DNA of 23,578 nucleotides from a virus. The stretch is from IMG/VR virus record IMGVR_UViG_3300025168_000687, positions 1 through 23,578 of that record; one strand, 5' to 3'. The notes beneath the pieces were generated by a model. That model was not told where the DNA came from. It worked only from the letters and a program-made list of their open reading frames with translations, and made no database searches. Both the position numbers and the translations under genes were made by a program. Positions 2,924 to 21,714 of the stretch are shown piece by piece; the stretch's first letter is position 1; every line of letters begins with the position of its first letter.

Positions 2924-3823
2924 TTAACTTAGCAATACAATATCAGAACCGATACCATACTGAATACCTGCTGTATAGCGCATAACTACACGAACATTTT
3001 GTGAACCATCTAGGTCAGCCATATCAATAACTTTAACTTCATTACGGTCATCTAATAGACCTGTACCAAAGAATAAGTTAGATGCTTGTGCAGCAACTGC
3101 TGTGTTATCAGCTAGTCCACCTGTTGTAAACAACTTGATACCTTGAAAGTTCATTTCTGTCTGTCCTACGTTATAAAGTTCTCTATAACCTAGTGCAGCT
3201 TGTGCAGAGATATAAGCCTTAGCAATATTTTGTGAAATATAGATAGTTAAATCTTCTTTTCCATAAACACCGCTTGGGATAGCATCTACAATAGCACCTA
3301 ATTTAGCCACAACATTTGTAGCAGTAATAGCACCACCTGCTGCAACATCTACAACCGTTCCATCTCCACCTAGTTCAGTAGAAAAGCCATTAAAAGAACC
3401 TTCTCCTGCTGTACCACTCCAAATAGATGTTTCAGTTGCCTTAGCAACCTCAGCAGCTACTCTTGCAATAACATAGTCAGAAAATAAAGGAGGCAATTCA
3501 TCAAAAGCACTAAAGCCCATTTGTGCCGCCTCCCAATCCTGATGTAGTTCCTTTCGGCAAATTTGCAGATTTACTTGCATTTCAGAGGGGGTGAGTACTT
3601 TTTCTGTTAGTGTAAGACCTGATGTTGTAGCATCAAAATCACAGTCAGCAGAACGTACAAGGTTAGAAAATGCTCCTACTTTCATAGCAGCTTTATATTT
3701 GATATTAGGAAGGATAGTAATTGCTCCTTCGTCTAAAGTTTTTGCGGATAGCAAAGCAGCACCTAGATACTTCCCTGCAAACTCTCCACTATAACTTGAA
3801 TTTGTAATTGTTGGATTAGCCAT
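2924..3823 (-). CDS. Major capsid protein (HK97-like), 299 aa
   Basis: This should form the icosahedral head shell. The protein begins MANPTITNSSYSGEFAGKYL and has the charge-poor Ala/Gly/Thr-rich composition of capsid subunits. Recognisable segments are NIKYKAAMKVGAF, the NLQICRKELHQDWEAAQMG stretch (an area I associate with Bacteroidota phage capsids), a Gly/Ala/Val-rich middle, LTIYISQNIAKAYISAQA, and a C-terminal block VRVVMRYTAGIQYGIGSDIV typical of the last strands of the HK97 fold. The gene follows the acidic scaffold-like gene by 15 bases and is followed by a terminator, as expected for an abundant product. Start: ATG at 3823 after an AT-only leader (AAATAAATAAA). Confidence 0.85.
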   Translation of the reverse strand: MANPTITNSSYSGEFAGKYLGAALLSAKTLDEGAITILPNIKYKAAMKVGAFSNLVRSADCDFDATTSGLTLTEKVLTPSEMQVNLQICRKELHQDWEAAQMGFSAFDELPPLFSDYVIARVAAEVAKATETSIWSGTAGEGSFNGFSTELGGDGTVVDVAAGGAITATNVVAKLGAIVDAIPSGVYGKEDLTIYISQNIAKAYISAQAALGYRELYNVGQTEMNFQGIKLFTTGGLADNTAVAAQASNLFFGTGLLDDRNEVKVIDMADLDGSQNVRVVMRYTAGIQYGIGSDIVLLS

Positions 3824-14224: not shown

Positions 14225-15376
14225 TTAATGAATGTAGTACTTACCGAAGTTAGGTCTGCTAAGTATAGAGTAACAAGAATATCTGGCAGCATCAATCGTG
14301 TGGTTGAAATCATCCTGTGGAATATTTGTCATCCTACCTGCTCTATCTTCTTTCCACTTGTAGTTTCTAAACTCTTTAATCATATTCTCGCTATCCTTTG
14401 TTACGTGTAGTTTGTATCTTTTAAGTAAGTCTATTCCTGCTAGTACAGAATTAGCACCCTTATAAGACTTCATTACCTTGTGTCCGTATCTACGCAACTG
14501 TTCTATTATTTCAGGTCTTGCACTATCTGCATAAGTCATACCTAATACCTCTACTCCTTTTAGATATTGGTGTATGTCCTCTGTGGTCATCTTTGACCTG
14601 TATAGCATTTCTTTAAAGTATAGGTTGTGGTCTTTCTTGTATGTCGCAACAAGTGTAGTAGGGTCGTTAAATCCAAAGTCCATCCCATAAGCCACAAGCT
14701 GTGCATCATCAGGTATGCTGTCAATCTCTGTGTATTTGAATATAGTTGCTTTGCTAATTGCTCTTTGTCCAAGTCCATATATTCTCCAATAGTTTTCGTC
14801 TGTGTCTTTTAGTAGTTCTATCTCGCTTCTTATGCTATCGTCTATAAAAGGATTGTCTAGGTAAGTAGTGCTATATATTTCTACGTCATCTCTTGGCTCT
14901 AGTCTTTCCCATATCCAATGGTATTCGTCTGATGGGTTTAAGTCTCCTATAATCTTTTCTGTTGTTCTAAATGCTAACTGTTGGAATGCTTCTCTATCAA
15001 GTTCATTCATCTCATTGCAAAAAAGTAAATCCCTTTTGCGCCCTCTAACCTTTTGTGGTTGGTCTAATGATATAAACTCTATAAGGTTGCTATCTAGCTT
15101 ATACTCGTGATTACTTTTGTTGTGGTGCTGCTCATCGTATAAGTCCATACCTTTAAGTATCTCTAGGAAATCTCGCATCACAGTACCCCTTAATGCAGGG
15201 AATGTCTTACGGCATATAGTTATAATCTTGTTATCGTTGTGTTGACAGTAGTGTAGTATTATCCACAGGAGGACATTGTATGTCTTACCGCTTCTTGTTC
15301 CACCAACTTCTAATGTTATCTTCCTATTAGAGTTGGTTAGATGGTTATATACTTTATTTACTTGTATTGTGGTCAA
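14225..15376 (-). CDS. terL: Terminase large subunit, 383 aa
   Basis: The DNA-packaging motor ATPase and nuclease. Walker A is VGGTRSGKT (residues 24-32), Walker B is LLFCNE (117-122), and the RNase-H-fold nuclease domain has YGMDFGFNDPTT (Asp233), TYADSA (Asp284) and NHTIDAARY (Asp362). At 383 residues it is short but within the range for Bacteroidota phage terminases (Terminase_3/Terminase_6 type). No ATG or GTG lies upstream of Walker A in frame; the start is a TTG at 15376 inside the small subunit gene (23-base overlap), just after a TGA. Translation is therefore likely coupled to the small subunit. Confidence 0.93.
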   Translation of the reverse strand: MTTIQVNKVYNHLTNSNRKITLEVGGTRSGKTYNVLLWIILHYCQHNDNKIITICRKTFPALRGTVMRDFLEILKGMDLYDEQHHNKSNHEYKLDSNLIEFISLDQPQKVRGRKRDLLFCNEMNELDREAFQQLAFRTTEKIIGDLNPSDEYHWIWERLEPRDDVEIYSTTYLDNPFIDDSIRSEIELLKDTDENYWRIYGLGQRAISKATIFKYTEIDSIPDDAQLVAYGMDFGFNDPTTLVATYKKDHNLYFKEMLYRSKMTTEDIHQYLKGVEVLGMTYADSARPEIIEQLRRYGHKVMKSYKGANSVLAGIDLLKRYKLHVTKDSENMIKEFRNYKWKEDRAGRMTNIPQDDFNHTIDAARYSCYSILSRPNFGKYYIH

Positions 15377-15834: not shown

Positions 15835-15926
15835 AAGTTTGTTATTGTTTTAATTAATCCACCTATTGCTCCTATTGTTAGAAAGGTAGCCCATATAATT
15901 ACTATTATGTATATAGCTTTTTTCAC
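15831..15926 (-). CDS. Tiny membrane peptide, 31 aa
   Basis: A 31-codon frame with GTG start overlapping the DnaA-like gene's stop (GTGA). Sequence MKKAIYIIVIIWATFLTIGA, ending GGLIKTITNL: two Lys and then a single hydrophobic segment, so the N-terminus is probably cytoplasmic. Overlaps on both sides support translation. Function unknown. Confidence 0.45.
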   Translation of the reverse strand: MKKAIYIIVIIWATFLTIGAIGGLIKTITNL

Positions 15927-16423
15927 GGTATTACTGTTTCAGAAGCATTGTATATAGTTGCTTGTTGGTTTCTAGGTCTTATATTGTTTCTACGTGTTTC
16001 TTTTAACTCGTTTCTTAGTTCGTCTATCTGACCTTTTAGTTCAACTATCTTTCCTTCTAATACTCTGTTTTCGTACACCATTGTTTCAACAGTAGCAACA
16101 GTACCCTTTTTAGTGTACAAGTTATACACTCTATCGTATGCTTCTTTAAATGCAGGGTTATGGTCGTAATCCCAATCAAAGTTGTTTAGGGAATGTATCA
16201 CAGTTGCGTGTGTCTGCCCTAGTGTACCCCCCATAGCCTTGTAACTCATTTTAGTAGTTAGGGTTAGTATCTTGTAGTATATCTTTCTAGCAAATACTAT
16301 TTCTCTGTGTCTAGTGTTTATTGTTATGTCTTTTCCTGTTTGCTTCTCAATCAAAGTTTTTAGGTGTTGTATGTTCTCCCTGTTTCTTTGTGTAGTATTT
16401 AGTAAGAAGTTTTTGTATTTCAT
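15923..16423 (-). CDS. Stand-alone DnaA domain IV-like protein with coiled coil, 166 aa
   Basis: Residues 37-82 read like the DNA-binding domain IV of the replication initiator DnaA: RHREIVFARKIYYKILTLTT then the signature GGTLGQTHATVIHSLNNF (compare the canonical 'GGRDHTTVIHA'). The AAA+ ATPase domain of DnaA is absent; instead a coiled coil runs over about residues 113-145 (VLEGKIVELKGQIDELRNEL), giving a likely dimer. It could bind DnaA-box-like sites in phage or host DNA, to start replication, block the host initiator, or act as a transcription regulator. It lies between replication/recombination genes and the packaging genes. Confidence 0.75.
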   Translation of the reverse strand: MKYKNFLLNTTQRNRENIQHLKTLIEKQTGKDITINTRHREIVFARKIYYKILTLTTKMSYKAMGGTLGQTHATVIHSLNNFDWDYDHNPAFKEAYDRVYNLYTKKGTVATVETMVYENRVLEGKIVELKGQIDELRNELKETRRNNIRPRNQQATIYNASETVIP

Positions 16424-16651: not shown

Positions 16652-17473
16652 CTAATAGTGTGTGCATATGTATTTAACTTGTGTTTTATTTAAATCAAAC
16701 CACTCCCCTCTTTGCCTTTGATTATTATATTTTTTATGCAATTCATATTCTACATCTTTATTAAAAATTTTAATCATTTGATATGTTGGTTTTTCCGACT
16801 GCAATGTTTTTTCCCTATTTAGAGGGTCTGCTGATTTGCCTATCTTATAGTAACCTGTGTTATTGTCTTTAAGAATATAAGTTTTTTTATTTTTAGTATT
16901 ATTTTTTTTAACCTTTTTAACTTTCGGTTTTTTAGTTATTAACCTCTTTACAGTTTCTTCTTGATATATAATATATTCATCATATTTAACTAAATCTACA
17001 TAGTTTTGAGAGTATAACTTTTTTTTAACTTTACTATAAAAGTAAAAATCTCTTAAAAAACTATCCAAAGAACCTAAACGAAGATTGTTATAATGTTCAG
17101 CCCAAAATCTTTTCGTTTTGAAATCATCACTAGAATGAATGTGGTCTAAAATTACATTCCTATACTCATCTTGATAAAAATAACACTCCTCAATGTTTTT
17201 TTCCACATACCATCCTATATTATCTTCGAAATCTTTTTTAGTTAAAGTATGGTCAATAAGCAATGTACACTCTAATTCATCAATACTTGATTGAGTGTAT
17301 TTATTATTTAAATCTGTACCTAAATAATAATGAGCATACTCTTTAAATGTTTTATTAAATTCAATAACAGATTGCTCAAGTTTTTTCCCTCTTTCGCTTT
17401 TAAAAACCCAATCTGTATTGTTAATTTTTATTTTAGCTTTTTCGTCTCTTGTGTATATATGTATATTCATCAT
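16652..17473 (-). CDS. GIY-YIG superfamily (T5orf172/MUG113-like) protein, 273 aa
   Basis: Only the C-terminal 75 residues are recognised: KKTYILKDNNTGYYKIGKSA (about 196-216), then YELHKKY and RGEWFDL, the pattern of T5orf172/MUG113 GIY-YIG-like nuclease domains. The usual Y-I-x10-YKIG-x-(S/T)-x-x-P-x-x-R, the E(L)H(K) and the G-E-W-F elements are all present. The first 190 residues are unlike anything I know, charged and helical, possibly DNA- or partner-binding. The gene is much more A+T-rich than its neighbours, like a recently acquired insertion. It overlaps the exonuclease stop by ATGA. A nuclease or anti-host defence function is inference. Confidence 0.7.
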   Translation of the reverse strand: MMNIHIYTRDEKAKIKINNTDWVFKSERGKKLEQSVIEFNKTFKEYAHYYLGTDLNNKYTQSSIDELECTLLIDHTLTKKDFEDNIGWYVEKNIEECYFYQDEYRNVILDHIHSSDDFKTKRFWAEHYNNLRLGSLDSFLRDFYFYSKVKKKLYSQNYVDLVKYDEYIIYQEETVKRLITKKPKVKKVKKNNTKNKKTYILKDNNTGYYKIGKSADPLNREKTLQSEKPTYQMIKIFNKDVEYELHKKYNNQRQRGEWFDLNKTQVKYICTHY

Positions 17474-18530: not shown

Positions 18531-18639
18531 CTTTCTCTTTTAGCTGTTGTACTACTTGTTCTAGTATCATATACAGCTTTACTACGTGCTGTTCTAGTTC
18601 TTGTATTCTTGCTGATTGACTTGCTCGTTTCTTATTCAT
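18505..18639 (-). CDS. Small coiled-coil protein, 44 aa
   Basis: A 44-codon frame, MNKKRASQSARIQELEQHVV then KLYMILEQVVQQLKEK: a basic N-terminus followed by a leucine-zipper-like heptad pattern. It overlaps both neighbours. It may dimerise or pair with the 91-aa coiled-coil protein downstream. No family recognised. Confidence 0.5.
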   Translation of the reverse strand: MNKKRASQSARIQELEQHVVKLYMILEQVVQQLKEKDEQGTTKT

Positions 18640-18784
18640 TCTTTTCGTCTAGGTAATCGTTTGCATCTATGCATAAAGGATGGTCATCATCCATAGCAAT
18701 ATTAAATGTAGTTCTTAACCCCACACCTCTAAAATAGTCTATGCGTTCTTCCCAACTCATAGCAATAAAATCTTTATTATTCAT
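18632..18784 (-). CDS. Small acidic protein, 50 aa
   Basis: A 50-codon frame, MNNKDFIAMSWEERIDYFRG, ending ANDYLDEKNE, with pI clearly acidic. The ATG overlaps the end of the nuclease-like gene upstream; its stop overlaps the next ATG. The 'SWEERIDYFRG' helix might be a recognition surface. Function unknown. Confidence 0.5.
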   Translation of the reverse strand: MNNKDFIAMSWEERIDYFRGVGLRTTFNIAMDDDHPLCIDANDYLDEKNE

Positions 18785-19253
18785 AACTTACTTTTTTACA
18801 ATAGGCATTAGTGTAACCAAAAAACTTTACTTCCCAATCACAAACTTGTTTATAACTATACTTCCAAATATATGCTTTATTTTTATCAAAAGGCATAACA
18901 AAAGCATAGTAATCCATTTTCTTTTTTCTATGCGCTTCTTCATTAACTAATAAATTTTGCCTTTTATAACCTAAACTTTTTACGTCATAAGTTTTATTTT
19001 CTATTTTAATATCCCAATCGCAAACAGGTTTATCATCTAATAAAGTATTCAGCTTATGGTTTATGTTTTTATTATGTAAATAATTTGACACTATAAGTTC
19101 CCCTTTAATTCCTAAAACATCAACATATAAATCTAAATCTCCTCGCTTATATCTTGGATTGTTTTCTTTTAATTTAGAATTACTTTCGTTTCTTAATCTA
19201 CCAAGATGCTCTGCTACTTCATTTATATATTCAGGATATGTCGTTTTTATCAT
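18777..19253 (-). CDS. Possible PD-(D/E)XK-type endonuclease-like protein, 158 aa
   Basis: Residues about 44-96 contain LGIKGELIVSNYLHNKNINH, CDWDIKIENK and TYDVKSLGYKR: Glu-x-x-(V), then a strand with Asp, then D-V-K, the spacing of a PD-(D/E)XK nuclease core (E...D...DxK). Several Lys/Tyr-rich strands follow (MDYYAFVMPFDKNKAYIWKY). Family members of this shape are often restriction or repair-type nucleases, but I cannot place it in a named family. The gene is more A+T-rich than its neighbours, which suggests a foreign origin, and starts after an AACAAACATAT leader overlapping the gene upstream. Confidence 0.55.
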   Translation of the reverse strand: MIKTTYPEYINEVAEHLGRLRNESNSKLKENNPRYKRGDLDLYVDVLGIKGELIVSNYLHNKNINHKLNTLLDDKPVCDWDIKIENKTYDVKSLGYKRQNLLVNEEAHRKKKMDYYAFVMPFDKNKAYIWKYSYKQVCDWEVKFFGYTNAYCKKVSYE

Positions 19254-19659
19254 ATATGTTTGTTATTATAGCTTGTTTCTCTTGTAACAAATATACACTT
19301 TTATTTTGTTTGTTGGTGTTCCACATTGTAGTTTTAGGACAATACAGTTCTTCAGGCTTTAAATCCTTTAGGTCATTTAGCCAAAACATATAGTTTCCTT
19401 TAGGGTCATTTACAAAGTAAAACTTCTGTATGTCGCTATCCATCTTCATAAGATTGTTATACTTACCAACCTCTAGTATTTTGGTTTCATAGTACTTATC
19501 TCTAAACTTCATTTCGATAACACACTTTAATTCTTTAGGAGTAATACCCTGTGCATCGTATGGTAGCATAGTATCGCCTGTATGTACTAATCTCCATCCA
19601 TCTAGATTAAGAGCAGTAACTAGGGCTTTTTCAAAATTATGTATTGTCTCTAGCTTCAT
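19231..19659 (-). CDS. Hypothetical protein, possible nuclease fold, 142 aa
   Basis: I prefer the ATG at 19659 (MKLETIHNFEKALVTALNLD); a TTG four codons upstream is less likely. The middle has GWRLVHTGD, PYDAQGITPKELKCVIEMKF and YYETKILEVGKYNNLM: a C-V-I-E-M-K strand that could be the E-x-K of a PD-(D/E)XK fold, with an Asp before it. The C-terminal third is polar. It is next to a clearer nuclease-like gene. The fold is guessed from motif spacing only, so function is unassigned. Confidence 0.5.
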   Translation of the reverse strand: MKLETIHNFEKALVTALNLDGWRLVHTGDTMLPYDAQGITPKELKCVIEMKFRDKYYETKILEVGKYNNLMKMDSDIQKFYFVNDPKGNYMFWLNDLKDLKPEELYCPKTTMWNTNKQNKSVYLLQEKQAIITNIYDKNDIS

Positions 19660-19858
19660 ATACCTCGTCAATTTGTACTATCCAACTCTTAATTTTTGTT
19701 GGGCTGCAAGAACAAGGTTCTTCATAAGGGTGTGCATATAAATCAGCGTGCAGTTCACAAATAGTTTTGTAATGTTCTTTAGTTATATTACCTTCTAAAA
19801 TTTTAGAATAAGGCTTCCATTTCTGCCTTTGCTCTTTTGTCATTCTTCCTTTTGGCAT
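19637..19858 (-). CDS. Small hypothetical protein, 73 aa
   Basis: The sequence starts MPKGRMTKEQRQKWKPYSKI, basic, then has Cys-Ser-Cys around residue 50 (EEPCSCSPTKIKSWIVQIDE). The C-terminal part is helical and acidic. The DNA-binding-like basic N-terminus and the CxC are suggestive of a small regulator or cofactor, but no family is recognised. It starts inside the tail of the 41-aa gene and overlaps the next gene by about 23 bases. Confidence 0.5.
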   Translation of the reverse strand: MPKGRMTKEQRQKWKPYSKILEGNITKEHYKTICELHADLYAHPYEEPCSCSPTKIKSWIVQIDEVYEARDNT

Positions 19859-19859
19859 A

Positions 19860-19985
19860 TTATAATTCTATATCGTTCCACTTCTTTCTACGTTCATCAC
19901 ACCCACAGTCAGGATATATCTTTTTGTAAACATATCTTATCCCTGTGTACTTTGTAATGTAATATACTAAATCTCCTAATCTCAT
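19860..19985 (-). CDS. Small protein with C-G-C motif, 41 aa
   Basis: A 41-codon frame, MRLGDLVYYITKYTGIRYVY, then PDCGCDERRKKWNDIEL. The pattern 'GD-xx-(helix)-TGI-...DCGC..RR..(W/L)N' is one I associate with very small conserved proteins in Bacteroidota phages. ATGA-coupled to the sigma factor stop. Cys-Gly-Cys may bind a metal. Function unknown. Confidence 0.6.
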   Translation of the reverse strand: MRLGDLVYYITKYTGIRYVYKKIYPDCGCDERRKKWNDIEL

Positions 19986-20479
19986 AGCTTATCTTTTATT
20001 TTGCGTTTAACTTTCTGATAGGTATTGTAAAGGCTTCTGTACTCTATGTTGGTTTCCCTAGATAATGCAGATATGTTGTTAGTGTCCTGTACAAGTTCAA
20101 ATACCTTTTTGTCGTACCAATGCATCTCGTTTAGTGCTTGGTTTACTTTGTCAAAGGCTTCTTCAAATATCTTTTCATCTTCTAACTCTACCTTTGTCTT
20201 TTCTTCTATTAAGTATTTTATGTAGTCGTCTGTTAGGTCTACAACTTGTGTACGCTGCTCCTTACGACATAAATCTAAAAACATACTACGAAGCACCTTA
20301 TAAATATAATAGTCGTTTATATCGTCTTTATACGAGATATCTATTCCGTTTTGTATAAGTACTAATAGTTTAAGATACATCTCTTGTACCAAGTCCTCGC
20401 TAGTGTCAGGATTGCACCCCCAACTACGACAGTAGCTTATCCATTTATTGTGTTTGCTTGTTAGTATGTCGGTTATCAA
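19982..20479 (-). CDS. Sigma-70-like (ECF-type) transcription factor, 165 aa
   Basis: A phage sigma factor that would redirect host RNA polymerase. Region 2 is visible at residues 28-73 (EDLVQEMYLKLL, then YIYKVLRSMFLDLCRKEQRT); region 4 with the helix-turn-helix at about 122-160 (YDKKVFELVQDTNNISALSR then EYRSLYNTYQKVKRKI). No region 1 or 3 is present, as in ECF-type sigmas. It is expressed in the early unit, well placed to switch on late genes that share the CGTTATAnTTATATG element. A link between this factor and that element is an inference. Confidence 0.75.
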   Translation of the reverse strand: MITDILTSKHNKWISYCRSWGCNPDTSEDLVQEMYLKLLVLIQNGIDISYKDDINDYYIYKVLRSMFLDLCRKEQRTQVVDLTDDYIKYLIEEKTKVELEDEKIFEEAFDKVNQALNEMHWYDKKVFELVQDTNNISALSRETNIEYRSLYNTYQKVKRKIKDKL

Positions 20480-20491
20480 TGTGGTTGTTTA

Positions 20492-20806
20492 TTAGTTAAT
20501 ATACTCTTTTATCTTGTAATATACTGTAAGTTCTTCGTCTTTATTTATATCTCGCAAAGTATATAGCACTCTACACTTTTTGTCTTGTTTTACAATTTCT
20601 TTTATGTAACAATTTGGATGTGTAGAATGGTTTATAAAACCTCCTAGCGGTGTTCTTATCCAAGTAAGCCAAAGGTCTATGTGCGTGATGCCTAGTTCTG
20701 TGCTTATCTTTATATCATCAATAGCAAACAAACCTAAACCATCCACACCTGACTTTTTAATAGTAAGGCTTTTAGGCAAAGGTCTGTATGTATTGTCAAA
20801 ATTCAC
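20492..20806 (-). CDS. SET-domain protein (probable lysine methyltransferase), 104 aa
   Basis: A minimal SET domain: GLGLFAIDDI (residues 23-32), the pseudoknot motif GGFINHSTHPN (55-65) and DEELTVYY (90-97). In the family, 'NHxxxPN' binds S-adenosylmethionine and the Tyr after 'GEEL' is catalytic (Tyr96 or Tyr97). At 104 residues it lacks pre-SET and post-SET Cys clusters, so it is shorter than the usual 130. The GTG start overlaps the helicase stop (GTGA). Its substrate may be a phage or host protein Lys; SET proteins are known in viruses and some phages but unusual. Confidence 0.8.
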   Translation of the reverse strand: MNFDNTYRPLPKSLTIKKSGVDGLGLFAIDDIKISTELGITHIDLWLTWIRTPLGGFINHSTHPNCYIKEIVKQDKKCRVLYTLRDINKDEELTVYYKIKEYIN

Positions 20807-21714
20807 AGTAATTCTATTTGCTCACGTTTTGGATATTGTATAGGGTTCTTACCCTCTATGTTAAAGCCTACGTTATTCTTTACGCTTTCTAATCTTATTG
20901 GGTCTTCAAGTGCTGTACACTTTCCTCCAGTGTCAATATCCTTGCATTTTTTAACGTGAATGTGTGAGTACATCCAATCGCTAGGACTGTACAAGTACCT
21001 GTGTACCGTAAAAAAATTATCACAACGGTTCACGAACATACCGCCAAATTCTATTGATGCCGCACTAGGTGGAATAGGATGCCCTTCATAGTAATGTCCT
21101 TTAGGGTGTTTCTGTCTTAATGCTTCTGTTGCAGCGTGAGCGCATATATAGGTTGAAATTTCATTGTCTTTGCAAAAAATCCTAACGTCTGATAATGCTT
21201 CATAATTATATTCATATGAAGATGAGCCTTTTAGTTTCTCTTTATCTTTTGCTAAACTATTCCAAGGGTCAATAATAAACCCTTGATAATCCCAAGCCTT
21301 TTTAACGTGCTGTGCTAAATCTAGTAGTGATTTGTAAGTGTATATTTTAGAAGCATCTACAAACTTAAAATGCTCGTCAATCCACTTTATACGTTCCTTG
21401 TAAACGCTTTCTTCTATCTTATTAAAAACTTGACCTTCTAAAAACTCTAATATCTTACGATAAAGAGTATAACATTCGTTTTCGCTACTAAACACTAACC
21501 ACTTTATATCGTGTTTAATTGAATATAGTGTCATCAAGTAAAGTAGTACTGATGTTTTTCCAACGTTTGCGTGTCCTAGTACAATATTTAGACTAGAATA
21601 TTTAAAACGCATATGGTTATCAAGTCGAGGAATACCGAGTTTAAGACCTGTTTTTAAAGTCCCTGCTCGATATTCATCCAACTTCTTTAATTGTTTATCT
21701 AGCTGTATAAGCAT
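20803..21714 (-). CDS. RecA/DnaB-fold replicative helicase-like ATPase, 303 aa
   Basis: Walker A is GHANVGKTS (residues 47-55), with a catalytic-type Glu in SSENE (76-80), and Walker B is GFIIDPWNSL (145-154). A later strand with ICAHAATEALRQKHP (190-204) is the sensor-like motif of the DnaB/RadA family (compare 'H..K' or 'H....R'). The N-terminal DnaG-binding domain of DnaB is missing; only the motor remains, as in small phage helicases. It probably unwinds DNA for replication, possibly loading onto DNA covered by the small DLPF-tailed protein just upstream, which it touches by one shared base. Confidence 0.8.
   Translation of the reverse strand: MLIQLDKQLKKLDEYRAGTLKTGLKLGIPRLDNHMRFKYSSLNIVLGHANVGKTSVLLYLMTLYSIKHDIKWLVFSSENECYTLYRKILEFLEGQVFNKIEESVYKERIKWIDEHFKFVDASKIYTYKSLLDLAQHVKKAWDYQGFIIDPWNSLAKDKEKLKGSSSYEYNYEALSDVRIFCKDNEISTYICAHAATEALRQKHPKGHYYEGHPIPPSAASIEFGGMFVNRCDNFFTVHRYLYSPSDWMYSHIHVKKCKDIDTGGKCTALEDPIRLESVKNNVGFNIEGKNPIQYPKREQIELL

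Follow-up and report, generated by a model that had tools for sequence, protein, structure and literature searches.

A minimal stand-alone SET domain protein of a probable flavobacterial phage and its relatives in marine phages and bacteria

Introduction

Which protein, if any, would a phage methylate with a bare SET domain? In human cells, SET enzymes methylate histones. The question is raised here by a small gene in the IMG/VR virus record IMGVR_UViG_3300025168_000687, of which positions 1 to 23,578 were analysed (23,578 nucleotides, hereafter the window). An original prediction, made from the sequence alone, described a protein reduced to the core SET fold, regarded such a gene as unusual in phage, and took the adjoining helicase and sigma factor genes as a sign that the substrate belongs to the replisome or the transcription machinery. 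We compared this gene with its viral and bacterial relatives and modelled the structure of its product. The interpretation was partly supported: a minimal SET domain with active-type elements and a gene pair that recurs in near relatives stood up, but rarity in phage and a substrate deduced from the neighbours did not.

Results

The gene is located at positions 20492..20806 on the minus strand, starts with GTG and codes for a minimal stand-alone SET domain protein of 104 aa, recognised by Pfam SET, by PHROG 28741 and in an AlphaFold2 model. Its location, its length and its core motifs are those originally given, GLGLFA, NHSTHPN and EELTVYY all being found in the protein. The neighbours are also present as described and were correctly labelled in kind. 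Upstream, a gene for a RecA/DnaB-like helicase domain protein of 303 aa (20803..21714, minus strand), DnaB_C-like and matching the phage primase/helicase family PHROG 18375 (E=7.5e-36), shares a GTGA overlap with the SET gene (20803..20806, minus strand), in which the stop codon TGA of the former meets the start codon GTG of the latter. Directly downstream, an ORF starting 12 bp after the SET gene (19982..20479, minus strand, TTG start) encodes a sigma-70/ECF-like factor of 165 aa, which scored 42.7 bits against a cut-off of 42.9 with TIGR02937 and 6e-5 with Sigma70_r2.

The protein matched the Pfam SET profile (PF00856) with an E-value of 4.1e-12 and 46.9 bits, against a curated cut-off of 22.4 bits, with only the latter half of the profile aligned (residues 56-98). 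The match to PHROG 28741 is full-length (E=1.6e-22, residues 6-99 on profile positions 2-95 of 100) and is shared by 98 of the 99 relatives, while every one of the 99 members of alignment A2 matches Pfam SET at E<=0.01. Among solved structures, the SET domains of yeast COMPASS and human MLL were retrieved at E=6e-8 to 1e-5. Comparison of the window gene with its diverged close relatives (L003, L005, L006 and L007) gave dN/dS values of 0.09-0.26; the gene is under purifying selection in its nearest relatives. Taken with the Pfam, PHROG and solved-structure matches, these values indicate that the ORF is not a chance one. It is kept as a protein, most likely as an enzyme.

The window phage is probably a flavobacterial phage, since the protein at the capsid position (2924-3823, minus strand) matches Nonlabens phages P12024L/S only, the helicase has its best matches in Maribacter and Cellulophaga phages, and the terminase in Bacteroidales phages. 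The restricted matches of the capsid-position protein further point to a poorly sampled group of flavobacterial phages. In the annotated phage collection, no SET match was found in these related Nonlabens, Maribacter, Cellulophaga and Bacteroidales phages, and the sigma-like ORF had no match. Other genes of the window also drew our attention. The gene for the terminase large subunit (14225-15376, minus strand) has an apparent TTG start. The only domain recognised in a 166-aa protein (15923-16423, minus strand) is Bac_DnaA_C (1.8e-8), the C-terminal part of DnaA that binds DNA; the AAA+ ATPase is missing. Between this gene and one for an exonuclease VIII-like protein lies a gene (16652-17473, minus strand) whose product ends in a MUG113/T5orf172 (GIY-YIG-like) domain.

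According to the original prediction, the SET enzyme would methylate its operon neighbours or the machinery in which they work, namely the phage helicase and replisome, or an RNA polymerase acting together with the sigma factor of the phage. Indeed, both the helicase-SET-sigma order and the GTGA overlap are kept in 8 of 8 near-identical contigs (the window and its seven closest), some distant members of the family lie near replication genes such as that for DNA polymerase, and the family of the sigma-like factor occurs within the examined flanks of six other viral loci. However, almost nothing of this arrangement is left outside the window clade. Across 61 other non-redundant viral loci, the adjoining genes on the same strand came from 41 families on the upstream side and from 34 on the downstream side. 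Among the neighbours are genes for endonuclease VII, HNH nucleases, DNA polymerase, ribonucleotide reductase, peptide deformylase and the baseplate. The SET gene overlaps the upstream gene in 42 of these 61 loci, whatever that gene is, so that the overlap with the helicase gene is not special but follows the rule.

The near relatives themselves also argue against a functional tie to the helicase. Among the window, L003, L005, L006 and L007, the helicase gene (20803-21714 in the window) falls into two allele classes approximately 25% apart in protein, and recombination has left a boundary within its final 100-200 bp, ahead of the SET gene. Compared with the window, L003-L006 are 61-83% identical over the helicase body and then 83-99% identical through SET and sigma, whereas the identity of L007 is 95-99% for most of the helicase but 85-90% in SET. 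Thus, L007 differs from the window by 5 amino acid changes in the helicase but by 17 of 104 residues in SET, the most different SET protein of the set, and L003 shows the reverse pattern, with 73 changes in the helicase and 8 in SET. Variation in the SET gene therefore does not track that of the helicase or its allele classes. This removes the adjacency argument, while the helicase itself could still be a substrate. With neighbours that mostly differ beyond the closest kin and a helicase body that recombines independently, we rejected the neighbours as a guide to a replisome or transcription substrate, and we consider the operon-based explanation unlikely. Gene content downstream of the sigma gene is variable as well among near-identical phages (window ~18600-19860; L002, L004, L005 and L007), where we observed 73/146/158-aa ORFs, a 159-aa ORF, a second sigma-like 192-aa ORF with a 134-aa ORF, or a 169-aa ORF. 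Several of these look nuclease-like by eye, without a clear family match, as in a variable cargo spot.

The family is widespread in viruses. It was detected in at least 542 IMG/VR contigs in one scan, and a second scan with a cyanophage-type query returned 100 contigs. In the annotated phage collection, 6 of 50,697 records carry it, corresponding to four phage genomes: P-SSM7 and P-RSM6 (two records each), Pelagibacter phage Kolga and marine virus AG-345-P14, in which the gene is labelled hypothetical or left unannotated. The family is thus rare among isolates only. Earlier annotations of SET proteins exist for uncultured Caudovirales in BFVD, and ORF62 of phage Ps15 is mentioned in passing as a SET protein in PMC9025141. 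These occurrences contradict the view that such proteins are unusual in phage. Phage SET proteins and PHROG 28741, catalogued without an assigned function, are already on record; our literature search returned no study of their function and no characterised phage protein lysine methylation, phage SET proteins appearing in passing mention only.

The PHROG 28741 members of P-SSM7 and P-RSM6 (Prochlorococcus) and Kolga (Pelagibacter) are full-length homologues, 45-51% identical to the window protein and with the same motifs, but their contexts differ from that of the window, with ribonucleotide reductase genes in P-SSM7, gp25/baseplate in P-RSM6 and an AAA protein in Kolga. The homologue in P-SSM7 is PSSM7_204. 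In three contigs (L048, 479-1233; L051 and L054, 5582-6336), two SET genes of the family stand in tandem in the same phage with a 4-base overlap, and a heterodimer is possible there. Such a SET domain is also contained in PHROG 34170 (296 aa) and in the uncultured-virus protein A0A218ML49 (971 aa). Fusion ("Rosetta stone") proteins gave no substrate clue, as the SET domain stands alone, without any fused domain, in all 230 loci inspected. Plasmids yielded weak half-length Bradyrhizobium SET matches only. A link to defence was dismissed, the single marginal match (PDC-S58, E=0.008) being taken as fold similarity.

Cellular relatives come mostly from marine bacteria, according to their record labels. 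In one Flavobacteriaceae genus (that of G001), which is marine and streamlined with genomes of 1.3-2.2 Mb, the gene is chromosomal (loci such as L117, L131 and L142) and present in 21 of 22 genomes, with its own signature R[LT]PLGGFINHHEIPN. Across the Flavobacteriaceae as a family, about a dozen of 249 genomes have a strong match, and the distribution in Porticoccaceae is patchy (7 of 98 genomes at any match strength). We searched for phages with the Flavobacteriaceae-type SET sequence and found none, for which reason this clade looks chromosomal. In the tree, Flavobacteriaceae copies form one clade (99% SH-aLRT) and Porticoccaceae copies another (98%), apart from the phage lineages, in a weak and unrooted topology of 100 columns with few resolved forks that gives no direction of transfer between phages and bacteria. 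Several other contigs labelled cellular are phage-like, L107 being nearly identical to Kolga and L140 close to P-SSM7. The chromosomal copies adjoin genes for a GDSL lipase, an SBF transporter and a glycosyltransferase family 9 protein, and in Porticoccaceae, by the look of the sequences, FabB-like, peroxiredoxin and SSB genes. These neighbours were uninformative as to the substrate, and those of the lipase and glycosyltransferase kind also speak against the operon-based explanation.

A second alternative is that the substrate is a phage product, either a virion or DNA-packaging protein or the SET enzyme itself, and not a host protein. Several relatives do lie two or three genes from the terminase large subunit gene, and two neighbours match a baseplate wedge subunit. 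However, no structural gene is constantly linked, and the chromosomal copies in hosts have no phage genes around them. We rank this alternative just after the operon-based one, and likewise as improbable.

The positions expected of a catalytic SET domain are the best conserved in the family. Over approximately 190 distinct relatives, G25, N59, H60, N65 and E92 are 100% conserved and Y97 is 99% conserved, its sole exception being an ambiguous X. These residues belong to the GxG motif G23-L24-G25, the first part of the SAM site (20732..20740, minus strand; G23 99%), to the family signature and SET core motif RTPLGGFINHSTHPNC (residues 51-66; 20609..20656, minus strand), in which R51, G55 and F57 are also at 100%, and to EELTVYY (residues 91-97; 20516..20536, minus strand), supported by alignments to MLL. 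All catalytic-SET motifs (GxG, NHSxxPN and ELxxxY with the final tyrosine) are thus present. N59-H60 are the canonical SAM-contacting pair of SET enzymes, and Y97 aligns with the second tyrosine of MLL "ELTYDY", the catalytic one. The SAM contacts and the catalytic tyrosine of known SET enzymes are thus among these conserved positions. Further invariants are L10, S19 and G39, along with H42 at 98%; together with R51, G55, F57, "YRPLP" and "RTPLGGF", they make up a recognisable family signature. The MLL Phe/Tyr switch position is occupied by V, L or I in the family (V95 in the window protein), which would point to di- or trimethylation if the SET enzymes of known biochemistry are a guide. The original description of a minimal SET domain is therefore supported, with all the elements that an active methyltransferase should have.

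Structure prediction, which had been proposed as a check, returned a SET fold. The AlphaFold2 model, built from alignment A2 (99 sequences, rows from phage records left out), had a mean pLDDT of 91.7 and a pTM of 0.81, and the SET beta-fold is present in the predicted structure. The PDB matches listed by Foldseek were SET domains throughout, with MLL1 at the top, and VIA-align gave a Z of 12.4 to the MLL1 SET domain over 98 of 104 residues and of 11.4 to vSET (3kma) over 87 residues. In profile alignments, the matched core of the PHROG 28741-type family was ~30 residues shorter than that of MLL1 and ~18 shorter than that of vSET, from which we conclude that the SET-I insert is essentially absent. 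With only seven residues after Y97 and no cysteine cluster, there is no post-SET domain either. The window protein thus has neither the SET-I insert nor the cysteine-rich post-SET region of the classical MLL/SUV39 histone methyltransferases, and "only the core SET fold" was an accurate description. It does combine the two traits of a short stand-alone viral SET protein and a vSET-like fold. The lid of the substrate channel, supplied elsewhere by SET-I and post-SET, is absent, and activity on peptides could be weak or nil. Inactive SET-like domains such as SET_TTL of TTLL12 are known, and a catalytically dead fold serving as a binding or structural module would fit such a possibly incomplete channel and the weak second match of the window protein to Pfam SET_TTL, but conservation that peaks at precisely the SAM site and the tyrosine is not what one would expect of a binding module, and we regard this as the least probable of the three alternatives.

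Discussion

MLL/COMPASS SET domains, the best sequence and fold matches of the window protein, work with WDR5/RBBP5/ASH2L on histone H3K4; they differ by the SET-I insert and the post-SET zinc region. The vSET protein of chlorella virus PBCV-1 (1n3j/3kma), a histone H3K27 methyltransferase, is also viral and stand-alone, with ~100-120 aa and the same fold (profile E=9e-14), but it is only 23% identical and belongs to a virus of a eukaryotic alga that has histones. Chlamydia NUE, Legionella RomA/LegAS4 and the Methanosarcina SET protein are prokaryotic SET methyltransferases as well, whereas the bacterial effectors are larger and target eukaryotic histones; this group gave weak local matches only. 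Methanosarcina SET acts on the DNA-binding protein MC1-alpha, from which a prokaryotic chromatin protein can be a substrate (references in PMC10117894 and PMC3980110). Together with the methylation of host histone H3 by vSET, also cited in PMC10117894, it provides a precedent for the reading given below.

Our preferred reading, to which we assign a probability of roughly 60%, is that the SET protein works as an active, SAM-dependent lysine methyltransferase and modifies in trans a protein that many hosts have in common. It builds on the fold, the motif conservation, the purifying selection, the family spread, the stand-alone form and the lack of neighbour linkage. The small single-domain protein would bind S-adenosylmethionine and methylate lysine side chains of another protein, perhaps as a dimer as in the algal-virus vSET. 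Because SET-I, the post-SET zinc cluster and any targeting domain are absent, the substrate groove would be open and specificity would come from the bare core. In marine tailed phages, the gene itself behaves as a mobile accessory element, inserted in any available tightly packed operon. The phages that carry relatives infect very different hosts, and other relatives are chromosomal in marine Flavobacteriaceae and Porticoccaceae; a host protein found in many bacteria is therefore a more likely target than the helicase or the sigma factor encoded next to the SET gene. A nucleoid protein, a ribosomal protein and an RNA polymerase subunit are candidates, and, most contigs being fragments, a conserved phage-encoded substrate may lie elsewhere in the genomes.

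A bolder version, which we put forward only tentatively, is that the smallest SET methyltransferases include a subfamily dedicated to marine phages. Whether the infected cell belongs to the Alphaproteobacteria, the cyanobacteria or the Bacteroidota, its members would modify a single bacterial component that is highly conserved (ribosome, nucleoid protein or RNA polymerase), and the gene would also have become fixed in marine Flavobacteriaceae with streamlined genomes. Phage protein lysine methylation is almost unstudied. The family described here is large and minimal, occurs in cultured phages (P-SSM7, P-RSM6 and Kolga) and is fixed in a marine bacterial genus, and the substrate is therefore open to direct proteomics. 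Should a conserved host machine turn out to be the target, this methylation would be a general way for ocean phages to reprogram cells.
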